Under the pieces are notes generated by a model that searched no databases, was not told where the DNA came from, and saw nothing but the letters and a program-made list of their open reading frames with translations. A DNA stretch of 43,229 nucleotides from Candidatus Poribacteria bacterium (GTDB lineage: Bacteria > Poribacteria > WGA-4E > WGA-3G): assembly GCA_003635185.1 (NCBI GenBank), contig PYJA01000141.1:22949-66177 (forward strand), read 5' to 3'. Within the stretch, counting starts at the first letter, position 1. Each line of letters begins with the position of its first letter. Both the position numbers and the translations under genes were made by a program. This document shows, one piece after another, positions 26,489-36,999 of this stretch.

Positions 26489-27403
26489 ATGGCTACAGAA
26501 CTTACTGAACCTGACATAGCACCACAGCTAATTGGACAATTTGATACTGCTTCAAAGCAAATTGTCCGTAAAAATGCTGATGAATGTATCCAATTTTGCC
26601 TCGGCACCACGGATGCTGAAGCAATTAATGTGATAGAAACTGAACAACCTGTCGTCAAATGGTATCGTGCAGATAGTTTCATACATGCAAATGTGCGCGG
26701 TGAAGAAGCCATCGTCCACATGGAATTTCAGACACACGATAGCACAGAGGTACCGATGCCTTACCGCATAGCAGGTTACGCTGGTTTAGGGATACGGACA
26801 TATCAATTGCCGATCTATTCACACGTGATTTACCTGCATCCGAATGCGGGACTCAATGACCCAGGCGAATACGTGCAAAATGTGCCAGGGTATGAGATTG
26901 CCATTAAATATAAAGTCATCAGGCTCTGCAATATAGATGGGCAAAATGTTTTAGACGCGAAACTAAAAGGACTTATCCCTTTTGCACCGCTGATGAAACC
27001 ACCAGAAGAAATGGATGCTGATCAGTGGTTGCGGAAATGTATTGAGGTGGCACAAACTATTCCAATGGACGAGGCAGACAAACCGGATTATCTTGCCGCT
27101 ACGGTCATTTTGTCTGATGTTATATTTGATTTTCACGACATTTATGATATTTTATCGGAGGAAACCATGAAAAAATCATCTTTTGCCGAATACTTTACAG
27201 AAAAAGCTGAACGAAAAAATACTATTGAATTGCTCCTTGATGTGTTAGAAGTGAGATTTCAACCTAACAACGTGCAAACACTAAAACCCACACTTGAGAA
27301 CATCCAAGAACAGCAGGAATTGAAGCAGCTGTTCCTTGAGGCAGTTCAAGTATCAAGTTTTGATGAATTTAAGCGTATCTTGGCATCAAATGGAGCCGGA
27401 TAA
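26489..27403 (+). CDS. Rpn/DUF4351-type PD-(D/E)XK nuclease with internal start site
   Basis: A 304-residue protein. D62 (RADSFIHANV) and E79-F-Q81 (VHMEFQTH) form the PD-(D/E)XK variant active site of the Rpn/DUF4351 group, followed by YRIAGYAGLGIRTY. The last ~78 residues are a separate helical module (MKKSSFAEYF to FDEFKRILAS). That module has its own ATG at 27167, with a strong CGGAGG-aaacc spacing, which is far better than the ribosome site of the main start (none visible). In E. coli rpn genes, C-terminal fragments made from internal starts act as antitoxins of the full nuclease. The sequence here predicts the same arrangement, and the module is duplicated as a free gene immediately downstream. 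Confidence 0.88.
   Translation: MATELTEPDIAPQLIGQFDTASKQIVRKNADECIQFCLGTTDAEAINVIETEQPVVKWYRADSFIHANVRGEEAIVHMEFQTHDSTEVPMPYRIAGYAGLGIRTYQLPIYSHVIYLHPNAGLNDPGEYVQNVPGYEIAIKYKVIRLCNIDGQNVLDAKLKGLIPFAPLMKPPEEMDADQWLRKCIEVAQTIPMDEADKPDYLAATVILSDVIFDFHDIYDILSEETMKKSSFAEYFTEKAERKNTIELLLDVLEVRFQPNNVQTLKPTLENIQEQQELKQLFLEAVQVSSFDEFKRILASNGAG
27157..27403 (+). CDS. Predicted intragenic product: C-terminal module of the Rpn nuclease
   Basis: GGAGG at 27157-27161, five bases, ATG at 27167, in frame with the host gene, giving 78 residues (MKKSSFAEYF...). The entry starts at the ribosome site. The detached downstream copy at 27408 begins at the equivalent codon, which supports this ATG as a genuine translation start. 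By analogy with intragenic antitoxins of E. coli Rpn proteins, it would neutralise the nuclease; this is inference. Confidence 0.6.
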
Positions 27404-27407
27404 AACC

Positions 27408-27620
27408 ATGCAAAAATCATCTTTTGCCGAATACTTTGAACGAAAAAATACTATTGAATTGCTCCTTGATGTGTTAGAGATCCGCTTTCAACCTAACAAC
27501 GTGCAAACGTTGAAACCTATGATTGAAAGCATTGAGGAATTGCAAACGCTTAAGCGATTGCATCGCGAAGCAGTTCAAGTGCCAAGTTTTGATGAATTCA
27601 GGCGCATCTTGGAATCATAA
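27408..27620 (+). CDS. Free-standing copy of the Rpn C-terminal module
   Basis: Seventy residues (MQKSSFAEYFERKNTIELLL...FDEFRRILES), about 80% alike to the last 78 residues of the preceding Rpn protein, minus an eight- to nine-base-in-codons gap (TEKA missing). The DNA similarity begins at the ribosome-site region (CCGGATAAAACC here versus CGGAGGAAACC there) and runs through the stop, so the duplicated unit is the small reading frame with its leader rather than a random gene piece. It starts four bases after the Rpn stop. It is probably an antitoxin-like or regulatory partner of the Rpn nuclease. It contains no catalytic residues. Confidence 0.75.
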   Translation: MQKSSFAEYFERKNTIELLLDVLEIRFQPNNVQTLKPMIESIEELQTLKRLHREAVQVPSFDEFRRILES

Positions 27621-27705: not shown

Positions 27706-27714
27706 TGGTATAAT
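27706..27714 (+). promoter_or_regulatory. Extended -10 promoter of the OB-nuclease-macro gene
   Basis: TGGTATAAT is a perfect extended -10 (TGn-TATAAT) with no good -35. It would start transcription about 17 bases before the ATG at 27738, leaving room for the GGGAGAG ribosome site. Confidence 0.6.
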
Positions 27715-27737
27715 ATGAAGTAAAAGGGAGAGATAAT

Positions 27738-29441
27738 ATGCCAACAGAGTTTAAAAATGTTAGTGAAATTACACAACAAGTATTGGATATCGTAAAACCT
27801 AATCCCAAGTTAAAAGATGTTTGGATACAAGGCAAGGTTTCAGGGATCAGACAGACACAAAATAACACCCTCAATTTTACGCTCACGGATAACAATCAGA
27901 AAATTCAGTGTGTCATTTTTAACGATAGAGAATCCCTGCAAGAGAATTTACCTGAAGCAGGAAACAACGTATCTGTCAAGGGAGAGATTTATGTCAATGA
28001 AAAGAAAAGCGAATATCGGTTTATGGTTACAGACGTAAAATTGCCTGAAGATCCTCCGCAGTCTCAACCTATTTCTGTTAATGATCTAACAGAAACCTTG
28101 AGAAATACCCTAAAGACACATTCGGACGAAGTTCAAGGTGAAATTGAAAGACTTTTTGTGACACCTGCTGGTTATACAATCTTGAAACTTAAAGATGTAA
28201 CTGCAGATGGACAATCTAATGATATAATCGAATGTGTAATCCCGCCAACGATTGAGCCCCCTTTCTCTCTTGAAAAAGGTGGAAAAGTTTACATAAAGGG
28301 ACAATTTGGAATTTTTCCGGACGCAAGTGCATATCGGATTAAAATTGACGATGCAAACGACATAGCACCAATTGCAAAACCACCAAAGCCAGCACCACCA
28401 AAGCCAGGCAAATGTCAGGAATGCCAGGAGCGTTATAACAACTTGCAAGATCAATTGTGTCATATATGTTATTATGCCAGTTTAACTTATGAAGGAATTG
28501 TTGTCGGTGCAGTCCTCCGTTATTTTAATGCACCGAAATTTGCAAATTTTACTACAAAGCGGGAACATCGAATTGATTTTACTCCAAATATAAAAGGGCG
28601 CGCGGATATTGCATTGTTGAATAGTAAGGGAAATCCAGTAGCCATTGCAGAGTGTAAACGAATCGAAGATAATAATAGGGACGATGGGATAAATAATCAG
28701 TTGAAACCTTACCTCAATGTGAGTGAGACCAATTTAGGACTATTTGCCGATGATACAGACCCTTATGAATGGATTTTTCTTAAGAGAAATGTTGAGAAAG
28801 CAAGATATGATAAGATCAACCGTTCTCAATTTGAGGAAGAACTCGGTGTAGAACCACCATCAGAAATATCACCAAATAAAACTCGTTTCGAACTTATTCA
28901 CGGCAATATAATTGAGGCAGAGGTAGATGCCGTTGTGAACGCGGCAAAGGCTGAACTAACCAAAGGCAGTGGGATAGATGCTGCAATTCGGGATGCTGGT
29001 GGTGAAGAAATTGAGAGAGCAATCCAAGAAATTATCGAACGTGAAGGTGTCTGTCCTCCAGGTAGAGCTGTGATTACGACAGGGGGTAACCTACCTGTAA
29101 GACATGTTATTCATGCTGTAGGACCAATTTATGATGATGGGGAACAACATGAAGCGGAGACACTTGCCCGTTGCTACAAAAATTGCCTGAAGATTGCAGC
29201 AGAAAAAGAAATTAGGTCTATCGCTTTCCCTGCTATTAGTACGGGTAACTACGGTTATCCTATTGAAAAAGCAACCCCTATCGCCCTAAACACCGTGAAA
29301 GAATTTGTAGAAAATGCACACCAGCATAACGAAATGGTCCCAGAACGCATTCAGTTTGTCTTGCTTCATGAAGAAGCTTATAACTGTTATGTCAAGGAGT
29401 TTTTAAAACTCGGATACGGTTTATCTTGTCTAATCGGGTAA
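27738..29441 (+). CDS. Multidomain protein: two OB folds, zinc knuckle, PD-(D/E)XK nuclease, macro domain
   Basis: A 567-residue protein with GGGAGAG before the ATG. Residues ~1-110 resemble the nucleic-acid-binding OB fold of exonuclease VII large subunit (LKDVWIQGKVSGIRQTQNN, VSVKGEIYV). Residues ~125-210 are a second OB-like unit. After a proline-rich linker, C226-x2-C229 and C241-x2-C244 form a zinc knuckle. Residues ~250-375 look like a restriction-type PD-(D/E)XK domain (GRAD290IALL, AE305-C-K307). Residues ~381-560 are a macro domain (ELIHGNIIEAEVDAVVNAAK, GSGIDAAIRDAGG, FPAISTGNYGYP) that would bind ADP-ribose. In its NAAN motif the last Asn is Lys (K404). I know of no named family with this order. 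DNA cleavage coupled to an ADP-ribose-type signal is inference. Confidence 0.88.
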   Translation: MPTEFKNVSEITQQVLDIVKPNPKLKDVWIQGKVSGIRQTQNNTLNFTLTDNNQKIQCVIFNDRESLQENLPEAGNNVSVKGEIYVNEKKSEYRFMVTDVKLPEDPPQSQPISVNDLTETLRNTLKTHSDEVQGEIERLFVTPAGYTILKLKDVTADGQSNDIIECVIPPTIEPPFSLEKGGKVYIKGQFGIFPDASAYRIKIDDANDIAPIAKPPKPAPPKPGKCQECQERYNNLQDQLCHICYYASLTYEGIVVGAVLRYFNAPKFANFTTKREHRIDFTPNIKGRADIALLNSKGNPVAIAECKRIEDNNRDDGINNQLKPYLNVSETNLGLFADDTDPYEWIFLKRNVEKARYDKINRSQFEEELGVEPPSEISPNKTRFELIHGNIIEAEVDAVVNAAKAELTKGSGIDAAIRDAGGEEIERAIQEIIEREGVCPPGRAVITTGGNLPVRHVIHAVGPIYDDGEQHEAETLARCYKNCLKIAAEKEIRSIAFPAISTGNYGYPIEKATPIALNTVKEFVENAHQHNEMVPERIQFVLLHEEAYNCYVKEFLKLGYGLSCLIG

Positions 29442-29500: not shown

Positions 29501-30688
29501 ATGATTTCACTATCACAACGCAGTCAAAACGTAACACCATCGTCAACCTTAGCCATCACAGCGAAAATCAACGCGATGATCGCGGATGGCGTAGATGTCG
29601 TCAAATTCGGGGCAGGCGAACCCGATTTTGATACACCCGACTATATCAAAGCCGCCGCAATCACTGCACTTGATGCAGGATTCACAAAATATACACCTGT
29701 CCCCGGTATTCCTGAACTTCGGGAGGCAATCGTGGACAAATTCAAAAATGACAACGGGCTGGATTATACAACATCCCAAGTTATCGTTTCGTGCGGAGCA
29801 AAACACACACTCTATAACATCATGCAAGCGATCTGTGACCCGGACGATGAAGTCATCTTTGCTGCGCCTTATTGGGTAAGCTATCCACAGCAGATTAAGT
29901 TGGCAGGTGCAGTCCCACGTGTGATTGAAACCACTGCCGAACAGAACTTCTGCATGCAACCCGATCAGGTAGAAGCAGCAATCACATCAAAAACAAAAGC
30001 GATTCTGATTAACAGTCCGAGCAACCCCACTGGTACTACTTATGATGTGGAAACACTGAAGCAGATAGCAGCACTTGCAGTCAAACATCAGGTCTATCTC
30101 ATATCAGATGAAATTTATGAAGCACTGCTTTATGACGGTGCGACACATCAGAGTCCCGCTTCATTCAACGAGGAGACGAAAGCGATTACCTTTGTCGTCA
30201 ATGGCGTATCCAAAGCGTATTCTATGACAGGCTGGCGTATCGGGTATACCGCAGGTCCCGAAGATGCGATTTCAGCGATGTCCCGTATCCAATCACACAG
30301 CACTTCAAACCCGACCTCCATTGCACAGAAAGCTGCTGTCGCCGCACTCAATGAACCGCAAGATGCCGTTGAGGAAATGCGACAAGCATTTGAAGAACGC
30401 CGTGATGTTATCTGTCAACGTTTTGATGAGATTGACGGTGTGAGCTATGTCAAACCGCAAGGTGCATTCTACATCTTTCCCGATTTTTCTGAGCATTATG
30501 GCAGAACACTTGACGGTAAAAAGATTGAAGGGTCAATGGATATTACCGATTATCTGCTCGGTTCAGCAGGTGTCGGTGTTGTGCCGGGTGACGGATTCGG
30601 TGCGGATAACAATTTGCGCCTCTCCTTCGCTACCTCTCTGACGGAGATAAACCGTGGATTAGATCGGATTAAAAAGGCGTTGGGATAA
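29501..30688 (+). CDS. Class I PLP-dependent aminotransferase (aspartate aminotransferase-like)
   Basis: A 395-residue enzyme with AAGGAG before the ATG. It aligns with aspartate aminotransferases of the Ib type throughout: GAGEPDFDTPDYIKAAA, YTPVPGIPELREAI, INSPSNPTGTTYDVETL, and K238 in VSKAYSMTGWRIGY, the lysine that holds pyridoxal phosphate. The arginine in the C-terminal LRLSFATS binds the substrate carboxylate. It moves amino groups between aspartate or related amino acids and 2-oxoglutarate in the cytoplasm. It is a normal-length, complete housekeeping-type gene beside an accessory region. Confidence 0.95.
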   Translation: MISLSQRSQNVTPSSTLAITAKINAMIADGVDVVKFGAGEPDFDTPDYIKAAAITALDAGFTKYTPVPGIPELREAIVDKFKNDNGLDYTTSQVIVSCGAKHTLYNIMQAICDPDDEVIFAAPYWVSYPQQIKLAGAVPRVIETTAEQNFCMQPDQVEAAITSKTKAILINSPSNPTGTTYDVETLKQIAALAVKHQVYLISDEIYEALLYDGATHQSPASFNEETKAITFVVNGVSKAYSMTGWRIGYTAGPEDAISAMSRIQSHSTSNPTSIAQKAAVAALNEPQDAVEEMRQAFEERRDVICQRFDEIDGVSYVKPQGAFYIFPDFSEHYGRTLDGKKIEGSMDITDYLLGSAGVGVVPGDGFGADNNLRLSFATSLTEINRGLDRIKKALG

Positions 30689-30710: not shown

Positions 30711-32777
30711 ATGTTAAAAACGAGCACAGAACAAGGTAATTTCTCACGAACCTTTACACGACGCGGCTTTCTCACGGCCGGCCTGAAAGCCGGCGCAGCA
30801 GCTTTCACAACAGCACTCCTACCCAGATTCCATGCAGATGCTGCAGGACAATATAATGTGTTGTTTATCATGGTTGATGACCTACGTCCTATGTTAGGCT
30901 GCTACGGACACTCAGAGATGCATACACCTAATATTGATAGGCTTGCCCAACGTGGTACACTTTTCAACCGTACGTATTGTCAAGCTCCTTTGTGCAATGC
31001 ATCTCGAACATCAATTCTTACGGGATTAAGACCTGACACAACAAAAGTGTTTTTCAATGCAACAGAATTTCGGCAGACACTACCAAACGCTGTGACACTC
31101 CCACAACACTTTAAAGCGTCCGGTTATCATACCCAGTCTGTCGGAAAAATTGGTCATAGCGCGGCAACACAGGATGATGCATACTCATGGAGTGTGCCTT
31201 CATGGTTACCACCATGGATCCCCTTTAATCCTTTACATATTCCTGTCTGGCAGTCGCTTGATGTTGAAGATAACGATCTGTCAGATGGTAGAACTGCCGA
31301 AAAAGCGATTGCGGTTTTAGCTGAAATACAACACACACAATTTTTCCTTGCAGTTGGTTTTGAGAAACCGCATCTGCCGCTCTATGTACCACGGAAATAT
31401 TACGATCTCTATACACATCAAGACTTCTCTCTTCCTGTGACGACTACGCTGCCGAATGATGCGCCTGAGATTGCAAATAACAAATTGGATGGGCTGAGAG
31501 CATACCTTGATATTCCAGATGAAGGACCTATATCAGATGAGAAAACATTAGAATTGATTCGGGCTTATGCTGCATCAACAAGCTACATGGACGCACAAGT
31601 TGGGCGTGTAATTCAACAGTTAGACATACTGGGGCTTTCTCAAAAAACCGTGATTGTTTTTGTCGGTGACCATGGGTTCCATCTTGGCGAACACGGAACT
31701 TGGCGGAAAAATACGCTTTTTGAAGTCGCTCTCCGATCTCCGATGATTATAAGTGTTCCAGAACAACAACCTAATGAAACAGATGCTTTGACAGAACTCG
31801 TTGATATATATCCAACGTTATGTGAAGCGTGTCAAATACCTGTGCCTTCACAATTAGAAGGTTTGAGTCTGATGCCTATTATTGAGACACCGAGTCGTCC
31901 ATGGAAAACAGCCACTTTTAGCCAGCTGAAACGAGGTCGCACAAATGGGATGTCTATACGAACTACCCAATACCGATACACTGAATGGGGAAATAAGGGG
32001 ATAAAAGGAAAAGAACTTTACGATTATCTCACTGATCCAGATGAAACAGTCAATATTGCTAATCTACCGGAAAATGCTGAACTTGTAATACATCTTAGTG
32101 AACGTCTGCATGCTGGTTGGCAAGAAGCTTTGCCTGATATACAAGAACCAAAAACGTCACCTTGGGATATAAATGACGATGGTGTTGTCAATATCCAGGA
32201 CCTGGTTCTCGTTGCCAACGATTTTGGTGCAGAGGTCCCAGTACACGCGAAAACAGACGTGAATCAAGACGGTAGTGTTGACATTCTTGACTTAGTTCTG
32301 GTTGCAGCACATTTTGGTGAATCTACACACAAGTCAGCACCGCAAAGTTCAATTGGTTTTTTGTCGAGACATGTTGATGACATTGAAAAATGGGTCATTG
32401 AGGCACGTTTAGTCGATGACGGTTCAGCTATTTTTCGCAAGGGCATTTCGAAACTGGAAGAGCTGATGAATGTTGTTGTGCCACAAAAAACCGTTCTTTT
32501 ACCCAACTATCCAAATCCCTTTAATCCAGAGACATGGATACCCTACGATCTGGCACAAGATACAAACGTCAATATTGACATCTATAATCTAAAAGGTGAA
32601 ATTATTAGAAAGCTTGTTATCGGTTTCCAAGTTGCTGGCACGTATCGTACCCAATCGCGCGCAGCGTATTGGGACGGACGGAATGCTGCTGGTGAACAGG
32701 TTGCAAGTGGGATTTACCTGTATACACTTCAAGCAGGGAAATTCAATTCGACACGGCGAATGCTGATTCTCAAATAG
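30711..32777 (+). CDS. Tat-exported sulfatase with dockerin-like repeats and C-terminal sorting-type domain (copy 1)
   Basis: 688 residues; GAGGG precedes the ATG. A twin-arginine signal (TRRGFLTAGLKAGAAAF, R17-R18) sends the folded protein out. The sulfatase domain (~45-470) has FIMVDDLRP metal ligands, and C95-N-A-S-R as formylglycine site, with Ala where the other two copies have Pro. VGDHGFHLGEHGTW matches the iduronate-2-sulfatase-like group. Residues ~486-540 hold two Ca-binding dockerin-type loops (DINDDGVVNIQDL, DVNQDGSVDILDL). Residues ~597-688 are a FlgD/T9SS-like domain starting YPNPFNPETWIPY and ending RRMLILK, probably for outer-surface attachment. It is the first of three tandem paralogues. 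Confidence 0.93.
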   Translation: MLKTSTEQGNFSRTFTRRGFLTAGLKAGAAAFTTALLPRFHADAAGQYNVLFIMVDDLRPMLGCYGHSEMHTPNIDRLAQRGTLFNRTYCQAPLCNASRTSILTGLRPDTTKVFFNATEFRQTLPNAVTLPQHFKASGYHTQSVGKIGHSAATQDDAYSWSVPSWLPPWIPFNPLHIPVWQSLDVEDNDLSDGRTAEKAIAVLAEIQHTQFFLAVGFEKPHLPLYVPRKYYDLYTHQDFSLPVTTTLPNDAPEIANNKLDGLRAYLDIPDEGPISDEKTLELIRAYAASTSYMDAQVGRVIQQLDILGLSQKTVIVFVGDHGFHLGEHGTWRKNTLFEVALRSPMIISVPEQQPNETDALTELVDIYPTLCEACQIPVPSQLEGLSLMPIIETPSRPWKTATFSQLKRGRTNGMSIRTTQYRYTEWGNKGIKGKELYDYLTDPDETVNIANLPENAELVIHLSERLHAGWQEALPDIQEPKTSPWDINDDGVVNIQDLVLVANDFGAEVPVHAKTDVNQDGSVDILDLVLVAAHFGESTHKSAPQSSIGFLSRHVDDIEKWVIEARLVDDGSAIFRKGISKLEELMNVVVPQKTVLLPNYPNPFNPETWIPYDLAQDTNVNIDIYNLKGEIIRKLVIGFQVAGTYRTQSRAAYWDGRNAAGEQVASGIYLYTLQAGKFNSTRRMLILK

Positions 32778-32799
32778 ATTTCTCTTGGAAGGGCAATTG

Positions 32800-34890
32800 A
32801 TGAAAAAAACATGCACTGATAAAGGAAATATCTCACGAACCTTTACGAGACGAGGCTTTCTCTCGACCGGTCTGAAAGCTGGTGCTGCTGCCTTCACAAC
32901 GGGTTTGTTGCCGAATCTTAGAGCAGAGACAGCGGGCCGTTATAATGTGCTTTTCATCATGGCAGATGATTTACGTCCTTTGTTAGGGTGCTATGGTCAT
33001 ACAGAGATGCACACGCCCAACATTGATGCCTTGGCGAATCGGGGAACACTTTTCAACCGTGCCTATTGTCAATTTCCTGTTTGTAATCCTTCTCGATCTT
33101 CTATTCTTACTGGCTTGAGGCCCGATACCATTGGTGTGCATGATAATAACACATATTTTCGGAATATTCTACCTAACGCTGTGACGCTGCCTCAGCATTT
33201 TAAAGTGCATGGTTACCATACACAATCAATTGGTAAGATTGCACATGGTCTTGCCTCATTATTTGACCAGCTATCCTGGAGTGTTCCAATTTGGAGGAAA
33301 TGGTCAACACCTCCTCATACAAAAACTATTCCATCGTGGAGTGCTCTTGATGTTGCTGACCATGAACTAAGGGACGGACAAACTGCGGACAAGGCAATAG
33401 AAGTCTTAGAGGTTTTAGCGGAATTCCCAAATACGCCTTTTTTCCTTGCTGTCGGCTTTTATAAACCACATCTCCCTTACAATGTCCCGCGAAGATATTA
33501 CGATTTATACGATTCTGTAACCTTTAATATACACACCGATTCTATGACACCAAAAGGAGCACCGCGTATAGCAAGAACAATTTGGAATGAGATAAAAAAC
33601 TACCACGATTTTCCGATTGGGGTAACATCAATTTCTGATGAAAAAATATTGGAATTTACCCGCGCTTACGCTGCATCAACAAGTTATATAGATGTTCTCG
33701 TCGGCCGTGTCCTTCAGCAATTAGACACACTAGGCCTTGCCGAAACCACAATTATCGTTCTCGTTGGGGACCATGGATACCATCTCGGCGAACATGGGAC
33801 TTGGAGCAAAAATACGCTTTTTGAAGTTGCCCTTCGTGCACCGCTGATTATCAGCGTTCCAGGGCAACAGTCTAACCGAACCGATGCTCTCATTGAACTC
33901 GTTGATATCTATCCGACTTTGTGTGATGCATGCCGCCTCCCGATACCTTCACAGTTAGAAGGGGTGAGTCTGAGTCCTGTCATTGAACAACCCACACGAC
34001 CGTGGAAAGCCGCTGCTTTTAGCCAATTAAAGAGAGGTAATATAAACGGTGCCTCTATCCGTACGGAACAATACCGATATACCGAGTGGGGAACTGATAG
34101 TAGACACGGACGTGAACTCTATGATTATCATGCCGACCCAAATGAAACAGAAAATATTGCTAATTTTCCAGAAAACAAAGAACTTGTAGCGCAGCTTAGC
34201 GAGCAACTCCAATTAGGGTGGCAAGCAGCTTTACCCGATGTATCGAAACCAATCCCAACACCGCAAGTGTTACCGTGGGATATAAACAATGATGGAATTG
34301 TCGATCTTCAAGACCTTGTCCTGATATCAAACAATTTTGGTGCCGAGATACCAGATAATCCGAAAGTTGATGTGAACAAGGATGGCAGCGTTGACATCAT
34401 TGATCTGCTTATAGTTGCTGCACATTTAGGAGAATCTACCAATATGGCGACACCGCCAACACACACCAATATTTTACCAATACATCTTAACCTATTAGAT
34501 AAACGGCTCACAGAAGCACACTTAATGAATGACGGTTCTGATGTTTTTAAACAGGGAATTGAAAAGTTGGAAGATTTACTAAATGTTGTTGTGCCAGAAA
34601 AAACCACCCTCTTGCCCAACTATCCAAATCCTTTTAATCCAGAGACATGGATACCCTACGATCTGGCACAAGATACAAACGTCAATATTGACATCTATAA
34701 TCTAAAAGGTGAAATTATTAGAAAGCTTGATATCGGTTTTCAAGTTGCTGGCACATATCGCACTCAATCGCGCGCAGCGTATTGGGACGGACAGAATGCT
34801 GTGGGGGAACGGGTTGCAAGTGGGGTTTACCTGTATACACTTCAAGCAGGAAAATTCAATTCGACACGGCGAATGGTGATTCTCAAATAG
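32800..34890 (+). CDS. Tat-exported sulfatase with dockerin-like repeats and C-terminal sorting-type domain (copy 2)
   Basis: The start is ATG 32800 (GGAAGGGCAATTG upstream); a TTG 15 bases earlier is less likely. 696 residues. Tat signal TRRGFLSTGLKAGAAAF, FIMADDLRP, C95-N-P-S-R formylglycine site, and VGDHGYHLGEHGTW. Dockerin-type loops lie near residue 493 (DINNDGIVDLQDL) and 30 residues on (DVNKDGSVDIIDL). The C-terminal YPNPFNPETWIPY domain is almost identical in DNA to that of copy 1, whereas the region around KRGNINGASIRTEQYRYTEW is almost identical to copy 3. The gene follows copy 1 after 22 bases, so the three form an operon. Likely substrates are sulfated polysaccharides; the specificity is unknown. 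Confidence 0.93.
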   Translation: MKKTCTDKGNISRTFTRRGFLSTGLKAGAAAFTTGLLPNLRAETAGRYNVLFIMADDLRPLLGCYGHTEMHTPNIDALANRGTLFNRAYCQFPVCNPSRSSILTGLRPDTIGVHDNNTYFRNILPNAVTLPQHFKVHGYHTQSIGKIAHGLASLFDQLSWSVPIWRKWSTPPHTKTIPSWSALDVADHELRDGQTADKAIEVLEVLAEFPNTPFFLAVGFYKPHLPYNVPRRYYDLYDSVTFNIHTDSMTPKGAPRIARTIWNEIKNYHDFPIGVTSISDEKILEFTRAYAASTSYIDVLVGRVLQQLDTLGLAETTIIVLVGDHGYHLGEHGTWSKNTLFEVALRAPLIISVPGQQSNRTDALIELVDIYPTLCDACRLPIPSQLEGVSLSPVIEQPTRPWKAAAFSQLKRGNINGASIRTEQYRYTEWGTDSRHGRELYDYHADPNETENIANFPENKELVAQLSEQLQLGWQAALPDVSKPIPTPQVLPWDINNDGIVDLQDLVLISNNFGAEIPDNPKVDVNKDGSVDIIDLLIVAAHLGESTNMATPPTHTNILPIHLNLLDKRLTEAHLMNDGSDVFKQGIEKLEDLLNVVVPEKTTLLPNYPNPFNPETWIPYDLAQDTNVNIDIYNLKGEIIRKLDIGFQVAGTYRTQSRAAYWDGQNAVGERVASGVYLYTLQAGKFNSTRRMVILK

Positions 34891-34911
34891 ATTTTTCTCG
34901 GAGGGCAATTG

Positions 34912-36999
34912 ATGAAAAAAACATGCACTGATAAAGGAAATATCTCACGAACCTTTACAAGACGCGGCTTTCTCTCTACCAGCCTTAAAGCAGGTGCTGC
35001 TGCCTTCACAACGGGATTATTGCCAAATTTTAGCGCAAAAGCAGCCGGACAATACAATGTCCTGTTTATCATGGTTGATGACCTACGACCTCTGCTCGGG
35101 TGCTATGGTCATGCAGAGATGCACACGCCCAATATTGATGCCTTGGCGAATCGGGGGACACTTTTCAACCGTGCTTATTGCCAATACCCACTTTGTAACC
35201 CGTCACGAACTTCGATTATTACAGGTTTGCGGCCGGAAACGACTGGTGTAATAGATAATTCAGCGGATTTTCGGGATCAGTTGCCAAATGCTGTGGCACT
35301 ACCACAACGTTTCAAAGTGCATGGATATTATACTCAGGCAATTGGTAGAGTTTTGCATATTCATGAACTCCAACATGATGAACGAGCATGGAGCGCGCGA
35401 TCTTGGGGACCACGATGGACTCCTATTGATAGAGCTAAAACGCCTTCATGGAATGCTTTCGATGTAGCTGACCATGAATTGCGAGATGGCCAGACAGCGG
35501 AAAAGGTTGCAGAAGTATTAGCACAAATTCAAAATCACCCTTTTTTTCTTTCTGTTGGTTTTTACAAGCCACATTTACCTTACAACGCTCCGAAAAAATA
35601 CTTCGACTTATACAATTCCCAGACTTTTAATATACATACTGATACTACAACACCAGAGAACGCACCGCGTATCGCACAAACAAATTGGAATGAAATTAGA
35701 TCTTATAAAGATATTCCTAATGGAACAATCCCTATTTCCCAAGAAAAAATATTAGAGTTGACGCGTGCTTATGCTGCATCTGTAAGTTATACAGATGCTC
35801 TCGTTGGCCGTGTTCTGGAACAATTAGATGCCCTTAACCTAATAGATAATACAGTTGTCGCTCTTGTCGGTGACCACGGCTATCACCTTGGAGAGCATGG
35901 AACATGGGGTAAAAATACTCTTTTTGAGGTATCTACCCGTTCACCGTTAATTATCAGCGTTCCAGGACAAACTTACCCTGGGACCAAAACTGATGCCTTA
36001 GTTGAATTGGTTGATATCTATCCGACGTTGTGTGATGCTTGTCAACTACCTATTAGCTCTGAACTGGAAGGGATTAGTCTGATGCCTATCATTGAACAAC
36101 CCACACGACCGTGGAAAGCCGCTGCTTTTAGCCAATTAAAGAGAGGTAATATAAATGGTGTCTCTATCCGTACGGAACAATACCGGTATACCGAGTGGGG
36201 AACTGATGGTAGACACGGACGTGAACTCTACGATTATGATACTGATCCAAATGAAACAGTAAATATTGCGAATCTGCCAGAAAACAAAGAACTTGTAGCG
36301 CAGCTCAGCGAGCAACTCCAATTAGGTTGGCAAGCAGCTTTACCCGATGTATCGAAACCAATCCCAACACCGCAAGCGTTACCGTGGGATATAAACAGTG
36401 ATGGAATTGTCGACCTCCAAGACCTTGTCCTGATATCAAACAATTTTGGTGCTGATACACCTGAAAATCCGAAAGTTGATGTGAACAGGGATGGCAGCGT
36501 TGACATCATTGATCTGCTTATAGTTGCTGCACATTTTGGTGAATCCGACAATCTAACAGCACCCGCAATACATGTTGAGATTTCCCAAAAACATATTAGA
36601 TTCTTAAGTGAATGGCTCACAGAGGCACGTTTAGCAGACGATGGCTCTAATGTTTTTAAACAGGGCATCGCTACCTTAGAACGATTACTTAATATTGCAA
36701 TTCCAGACAAAACGGTGCTTTTACCGAACTTCCCAAATCCTTTCAATCCAGAAACTTGGATTCCCTACGATTTAGCACAGGACACAGATGTAAACATCAG
36801 TATCTATAATCTAAAGGGAGAAATCATTAGAAAACTAAATATAGGCTATCAGGCTGCTGGTACTTATCGGACCAAAAACAGGGCAGCATATTGGGACGGA
36901 CGTAATTCCGCTGGAGAATTTGTTGCAAGTGGTGTCTATTTTTATTCTCTCAACACAGGTCCGGTAAAAGCAATCCGCCGGATGACAATTCTTAAATAA
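34912..36999 (+). CDS. Tat-exported sulfatase with dockerin-like repeats and C-terminal sorting-type domain (copy 3)
   Basis: The start is ATG 34912, with GGAGGGCAATTG before it (695 aa). Tat signal TRRGFLSTSLKAGAAAF, FIMVDDLRP, C95-N-P-S-R formylglycine site, VGDHGYHLGEHGTW. Dockerin-type loops are near residue 492 (DINSDGIVDLQDL) and after (DVNRDGSVDIIDL). The C-terminal domain begins FPNPFNPETWIPY and is the most diverged of the three (ends IRRMTILK). The central catalytic region differs most among the copies (the WGPRWTPIDRAKTPSWNAFD stretch), as expected if each copy prefers a different sulfated sugar. The Wzi-like outer-membrane gene follows after 41 bases. Confidence 0.93.
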   Translation: MKKTCTDKGNISRTFTRRGFLSTSLKAGAAAFTTGLLPNFSAKAAGQYNVLFIMVDDLRPLLGCYGHAEMHTPNIDALANRGTLFNRAYCQYPLCNPSRTSIITGLRPETTGVIDNSADFRDQLPNAVALPQRFKVHGYYTQAIGRVLHIHELQHDERAWSARSWGPRWTPIDRAKTPSWNAFDVADHELRDGQTAEKVAEVLAQIQNHPFFLSVGFYKPHLPYNAPKKYFDLYNSQTFNIHTDTTTPENAPRIAQTNWNEIRSYKDIPNGTIPISQEKILELTRAYAASVSYTDALVGRVLEQLDALNLIDNTVVALVGDHGYHLGEHGTWGKNTLFEVSTRSPLIISVPGQTYPGTKTDALVELVDIYPTLCDACQLPISSELEGISLMPIIEQPTRPWKAAAFSQLKRGNINGVSIRTEQYRYTEWGTDGRHGRELYDYDTDPNETVNIANLPENKELVAQLSEQLQLGWQAALPDVSKPIPTPQALPWDINSDGIVDLQDLVLISNNFGADTPENPKVDVNRDGSVDIIDLLIVAAHFGESDNLTAPAIHVEISQKHIRFLSEWLTEARLADDGSNVFKQGIATLERLLNIAIPDKTVLLPNFPNPFNPETWIPYDLAQDTDVNISIYNLKGEIIRKLNIGYQAAGTYRTKNRAAYWDGRNSAGEFVASGVYFYSLNTGPVKAIRRMTILK

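Follow-up and report, generated by a model that had tools for sequence, protein, structure and literature searches.

Ligand-gated PD-(D/E)XK effectors such as Can1/Card1 and Cap4 join a nucleotide sensor to a nuclease, as we propose here for a protein from Candidatus Poribacteria, but use CARF or SAVED domains as sensors where our protein has a macro domain. The nearest published idea that we found is that of the ARG-centred conflict systems, which, as outlined in PMC9503650, contain variable REase, Macro and NADAR genes and couple ADP-ribose-processing domains to rapidly evolving restriction-endonuclease-fold domains. Such a coupling is also seen here, but the domain architecture differs, and no match to ARG, NADAR or their regulators was present among the profiled neighbours of our module. 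In Thoeris, ThsA combines a transmembrane part with a macro domain whose described role within the effector is to read an NAD-derived nucleotide without hydrolysing it; the domain bound ADP-ribose with hydrolase activity undetected, and an N114A mutant still bound (PMC11204291). In the Poribacteria protein, by contrast, the macro is joined to OB folds and a nuclease.

Part by part, the protein also resembles three well-known families. It has the N-terminal OB fold in common with XseA, but PD-(D/E)XK and macro domains replace the exonuclease VII catalytic domain. It shares the PD-(D/E)XK family with the N-terminal nuclease of Type I restriction R subunits (HSDR_N_2), which have a helicase motor that the fusion protein lacks. 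The nearest sequence family of the macro part are the YmdB/MacroD hydrolases, from which the macros of the module differ in the loss of the second Asn of the NAAN motif (13 of 14) and in being fused or linked to a nuclease. A literature search, which mostly covered journals outside subscription, returned neither a description of an OB-nuclease-macro protein in titles or abstract openings nor a paper treating Poribacteria together with a macrodomain.

We tentatively regard the protein as part of a conflict module, accessory in nature and probably directed against phages, in which a nuclease carries an altered macro domain that reads an ADP-ribose-type ligand; this appears to us a realistic possibility, if somewhat short of an even chance. 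With less confidence, we suggest a more specific version, where the macro is an eraser turned reader and would act as the sensing or targeting arm of a PD-(D/E)XK defence nuclease guided by its OB folds; this nuclease, encoded with its macro as a gene pair or as a fusion, would respond to an NAD-derived signal or to ADP-ribosylated nucleic acid. We infer ligand binding, loss of hydrolysis, gating, cutting and defence alike from residue loss, genomic context and evolutionary pace. Of the parts, the two OB folds would bind single-stranded nucleic acid and the zinc knuckle would brace the linker, while the PD-(D/E)XK domain would cut. The macro, presumably a duplicated and altered YmdB, would have given up its usual hydrolase role and instead read its ligand, for which free ADP-ribose, another NAD-derived nucleotide or ADP-ribose on nucleic acid or protein are candidates. 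Binding would then either switch the nuclease on or bring it to a modified target. If this is true, ADP-ribose reading would be tied directly to nucleic-acid cutting within one protein, and bacterial sensing or targeting of ADP-ribosylation by an altered macrodomain during phage infection would become testable. The locus also illustrates a route by which a housekeeping-type macrodomain is duplicated into a fast-evolving accessory system.

Domain architecture of the fusion protein

The window (the whole stretch of 43,229 nucleotides that was analysed) encodes the fusion protein in one uninterrupted frame (Table 1). The original prediction had described a 567-residue chain of five domains, namely two XseA-like OB regions, a C2-C2 zinc knuckle, a restriction-type PD-(D/E)XK core and a complete macro domain, and all of them are backed by profiles, fold or conservation. 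The domain architecture and the existence of the module are solid; this part of the prediction was right, and its interpretation as a whole is supported in part.

Table 1. Positions of the fusion gene, its domains and its immediate neighbours (window coordinates; aa, residues of the fusion protein)
Feature	Position	Strand	Details and basis
OB-OB-zinc-PD-(D/E)XK-macro fusion	27738..29441	+	567 aa, no internal stops
First OB fold, aa 7-100, exonuclease VII large subunit N-terminal type	27756..28037	+	tRNA_anti_2 E 3.7e-23; TIGR00237 (xseA) E 7.3e-22
Second OB fold, aa 113-207 approximately (borders drawn by eye)	28074..28358	+	second stretch matched by tRNA_anti_2
Zinc knuckle C-x2-C...C-x2-C, C226/C229/C241/C244	28413..28469	+	kept in homologues
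PD-(D/E)XK core, aa 249-369, D290/E305/K307/Q321	28482..28844	+	HSDR_N_2, model and Foldseek, conservation
Macro domain, YmdB/MacroD-like, aa 379-567, NAAK (N401, K404)	28872..29438	+	Pfam Macro, alignment, trees
AspC, aspartate-aminotransferase-type, conserved right border of slot	29501..30688	+	Aminotran_1_2 E 9.3e-82
Neighbour of 304 aa called Rpn-like, recurrent in slot	26489..27403	+	cluster c3
TGGTATAAT, extended -10-like box (27706-27714), with purine-rich ribosome-binding-like site (27724-27732)	27706..27732	+	by eye

In two fused homologues, the first OB is also matched by the second OB of the window protein (E 1.5e-4 and 1.7e-6). The protein does not qualify as an exonuclease VII large subunit: TIGR00237 reaches 78 bits where 180 are required, over the N-terminal part only, and PF02601, the catalytic domain, gives no Pfam match at E up to 1. 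The four cysteines of the knuckle are present in 11 of 12 homologues and absent in L041.

The nuclease part belongs to the PD-(D/E)XK (HSDR_N_2) group, although the assignment is borderline for this particular protein. Against a cut-off of 25 bits, HSDR_N_2 scores 21.8 in hmmscan and 24.8 in the genome search, or 25.1, just above the cut-off, when neighbours in frame are counted. Homologues from the same module score 30.1-35.2 bits (L040, L041, L044, L045) or 23.3 and 24.2 bits (L037, L047), and the same genome holds ten further HSDR_N_2 matches, six of them above the cut-off. The AlphaFold model of the whole protein (three rows) was poor (pLDDT 50.5) and was left out of fold searching. The nuclease part alone (aa 216-372) gave a better model (mean pLDDT 77.5), with which the first 19 Foldseek rows were all nucleases of the PD-(D/E)XK fold; the best row (3ijm) had E 1.8e-3, no row fell below E 0.001 and TM-scores stayed under 0.5. 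In the alignment, D290 and Q321 are found in 12 of 12 homologues and E305 and K307 in 11, while in L043, a locus with an inserted AriA/AriB pair (see below), both of the latter positions are lost. No helicase domain was matched in the fusion protein (Pfam, E up to 1), and it fails as a Type I restriction R subunit, the motor behind the nuclease being missing.

The macro domain and its second NAAN asparagine

Pfam Macro matches aa 400-516 (E 3.6e-41; 140.2 bits against a gathering score of 22), which places the C-terminal part in the macro superfamily. Several YmdB-type macro models of NCBIfam match as well, all under their equivalog cut-offs. Two functional labels do not apply: for a YmdB-type O-acetyl-ADP-ribose deacetylase, NF001660 yields 166 bits instead of 271 and the motif is NAAK, not an intact NAAN; for a DarG antitoxin, the NCBIfam score is 11.8 bits against 250, the PADLOC match has E 0.018 and DarT is encoded elsewhere.

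The change from NAAN to NAAK, which, it had been suggested, could convert a hydrolase into a reader, is confirmed by the alignment. We counted as module macros all fused macros and all separate macro genes of at least 191 aa, and compared them with free-standing macros, of which 15 came from the family (retrieved stretches only) and ten were picked outgroups. The second Asn is kept in every free-standing macro (15/15 within the family, 10/10 outside). The corresponding position in the 14 module macros is Lys in three (window, G004 and G049), Asp in ten and Asn in a single case, the broken copy of G030, whose motif reads NSTN. Loss in 13 of 14 module macros versus 0 of 25 free-standing ones lends support to a putative shift from hydrolase to reader. 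In a coronavirus macrodomain, the equivalent Asn is reported to contact both distal-ribose hydroxyls and to restrain the catalytic loop (PMC7729036).

With outgroups included, 13 of the 14 module macros (L034 of G030 was omitted) formed one clade (100/99) nested among the free-standing macros of the family, with the ten outgroups beyond. In the macro tree without outgroups, the fused group did not fall on one side because of L034, which has a long branch. Their position in the tree places the origin of the module macros within the YmdB-like macros of the family itself, and the second Asn may have been lost in one or few events within a single clade.

The window macro retains VNAA, Asp414, VIHAVGP and STGNYGYP of the ADP-ribose cleft motif. 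Counterparts of the functional YmdB residues Asn25, Asp35 and Tyr126 were placed by alignment. Asp414, the counterpart of Asp35, is found in all 14 slot macros, and the GGGG loop is mostly retained in the separate-gene macros, where the fused forms have GSG instead. Some residual hydrolase activity is therefore possible. The position of Tyr505 is occupied by Tyr in five and by Phe in nine module macros; since Phe also occurs in 3 of 8 free-standing macros, this change is not peculiar to the module.

Module forms, distribution and pace of change

A search of 145 genomes revealed full-length fused relatives in G004 (66%) and G049 (62%). Another fused relative, in G037, is split over two contig ends, with the OB part ending another contig. 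In a second form of the module, a separate macro gene lies upstream of an OB-OB-zinc-nuclease gene. We surveyed the slot, that is, the stretch upstream of AspC, in 55 loci; AspC was found in 55 of the 58 family genomes. Fourteen loci contain a module macro, 13 of them together with OB and nuclease parts. The macro is fused in five (G000, G004, G049, G037 and G030, the last interrupted) and separate in nine (G028, G018, G048, G035, G054, G043, G045, G052 and G008). OB and nuclease parts likewise occur in 14 loci, the same set without G030 but with G024, the only one missing the macro; in G043 each of the two has its own ORF. G025 and G036 retain short macro remnants. The slot is empty, without labelled ORFs or ORFs of at least 90 aa between DnaJ and AspC, in 12 of the 55 loci (G002, G005, G007, G010, G011, G012, G014, G029, G033, G038, G046, G053), and the other slots carry Rpn-like, DUF433, nuclease-only or unlabelled ORFs, several being cut by contig ends. 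The window protein is one form of a wider module that is optional and patchily distributed. In the stretches retrieved from G000, G001 and G004, the upstream gene is a kinase, not DnaJ.

Other ORFs lie within the module at two loci. In G008 (L043, 7122-9292), the macro gene is separated from the OB-nuclease gene by an AriA-like and an AriB-like gene (PADLOC E 6e-36 and 2e-14). Together with the slot analysis and the evolutionary pace described below, this inserted PARIS-like pair supports the view that the module is variable and defence-like. The fused gene of G030 (L034, 408-2753) has two opposing ORFs between a nuclease fragment and a nuclease-macro part.

To cover a wider range, we used the first 374 aa as query against 84 genomes of the phylum, and an alignment of 11 OB-OB-nuclease regions against 386 genomes. 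Among the matches listed, those spanning all or most of OB-OB-nuclease came only from family f1, and those outside f1 reached over just the nuclease or just the first OB. Matches to the alignment outside the phylum were weak, the best (E 1.2e-18) lying in the range of XseA matches. Phages gave no match to the first 374 aa, and 41 pattern stretches in viral_contigs included no confirmed relatives. The whole protein found 121 plasmid records, none reaching 80% query coverage. In the best 15 of these the macro part was matched, with H11 also matching a stretch upstream of it; this record reads as a macro stretch interrupted by a stop. An OB-nuclease homologue retrieved five plasmid records with a single OB each, four annotated as xseA and one unannotated. 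In genome_contigs, the whole protein matched three loci, all from Candidatus Poribacteria, of which one encodes just a macro.

The nuclease module also recurs away from OB folds and macro. An RpoB frame of 2256 aa in G047 (L114, 702-7472) contains nuclease-module matches at aa 575-689, 726-840 and 1776-1826; among 35 further f1 genomes with a match to its N-terminal part, the frame measures 1613-1895 aa in 34 and 637 aa in one. In G021 (L087, 6297-7361) and G019 (L092, 7789-8850), the module sits between two DnaJ C-terminal-type stretches, adjoining AspC, and by eye the catalytic Glu is replaced by Val in both. Further loci (L003, L004, L005, L006, L008, L110-L113, L115 and L116) combine it with TPR, transmembrane-like, coiled-coil, helix-hairpin-helix or primase-like partners, several of these labels having been assigned by eye.

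The ratio dN/dS was 0.26-0.37 for the whole fused gene (three pairs) and 0.11-0.52 by domain, with each of the four parts below 1. In the comparison of the window with G004, dN and dS were 0.29 and 0.83 for the OB-nuclease part, 0.12 and 0.36 for the macro part and 0.0055 and 0.28 for AspC; dS was 0.28 for the kinase and 0.11 for the Rpn-like gene. Over most flanking 200-base steps, DNA identity between the two is 0.85-0.99; at 27101-27500, where the alignment is rich in gaps, it drops to 0.64-0.82. It falls from 0.94 to 0.74 at the gene start, remains at 0.64-0.76 across OB-nuclease and rises to 0.80-0.90 across the macro. At the separate-gene loci (ten pairs, from five of nine loci), OB-nuclease dN is about 7-13 times that of AspC and about 2-4.5 times that of the macro. 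The OB-nuclease part evolves much faster than AspC, a pattern consistent with exchange or an arms race. Because dS is elevated as well, the divergence may stem from swapping of old alleles and not from fast change alone.

The occurrence of the nuclease module in many non-defence-like contexts, in some of them with catalytic residues lost, counts against a defence function. It could instead be a selfish or domesticated mobile nuclease, moving between Poribacteria genes with macro and OB folds as passengers that have no regulated function. We consider this unlikely. The insertions in an RpoB frame and between DnaJ-type stretches, the TPR, helix-hairpin-helix and coiled-coil partners, the Rpn-like genes that also occupy the slot and the broken copies in G030 and G043 would agree with such mobility, but the macro is linked to OB-nuclease, dN/dS is below 1 in every part, and the catalytic residues are conserved in 11 of 12 OB-nuclease copies.

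Genomic partners and neighbours

A reader of an ADP-ribose-type signal as proposed above might be accompanied by a gene that makes the signal, but no signal-making or fixed partner was found for the module by TIR and DarT tests in the family genomes. TIR_2 is present in 52 of 58 genomes and DarT in 34. With the 14 genomes that have a module macro taken as carriers, neither TIR (12/14 carriers versus 40/44 others, p 0.62) nor DarT (10/14 versus 24/44, p 0.36) was associated with the module. Among the matches listed, no DarT lies near the slot, and the DarT match of G004 contains an internal stop. The window genome has one DarT match on contig C140, away from the contig of the fusion gene, and, among the matches listed, four to TIR_2 on contigs C120, C135 and C65, again not that of the fusion. 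The locus does not represent Thoeris (a TM-macro ThsA with an adjacent TIR protein, ThsB), as PADLOC reports none and TIR_2 is on other contigs; the only PADLOC match of the fusion protein at E up to 1 is the weak one to DarG.

These data also bear on a role in repair or clean-up, where the macro would bind or remove ADP-ribose on DNA, for example after DarT action, and OB-nuclease would trim the damaged strand. Such patchiness and fast evolution are rare in repair genes, and a repair role appears doubtful to us given that the macro is YmdB-like with weak similarity to DarG, has lost the second NAAN Asn and is not associated with DarT. It would, however, suit the XseA-like OB folds, the retained Asp414 and the presence of DarT in more than half of the family, window genome included, and a Streptomyces macrodomain is reported to cleave ADP-ribosylated DNA (PMC9411070). 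It is quite improbable that the nuclease is a ligand-independent, restriction-type enzyme with the macro as a mere fold for dimerisation or protein contact, for although the ribose-contacting loops are changed in fused forms (NAAK; GSG for GGGG), much of the ADP-ribose cleft motif is retained and evolution is slower in the macro than in the OB-nuclease part.

Two claims about the surroundings of the fusion gene did not gain good support. An extended -10 promoter of its own had been proposed; TGGTATAAT is indeed present, yet unlisted by the promoter scan, which requires a -35 box and finds no more sites than in its shuffles, and the box is altered in G004 and unrecognisable in G049. The upstream gene, described as an Rpn nuclease, has no Rpn match in Pfam or NCBIfam. 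The Rpn-like label comes from its look, and its cluster comprises 13 ORFs in the loci compared. A 94-aa ORF that follows it (27336-27620) looks as if partly copied from its C-terminal region. Downstream, positions 30711-36999 contain three tandem large genes that resemble sulfatases with dockerin-like ends.
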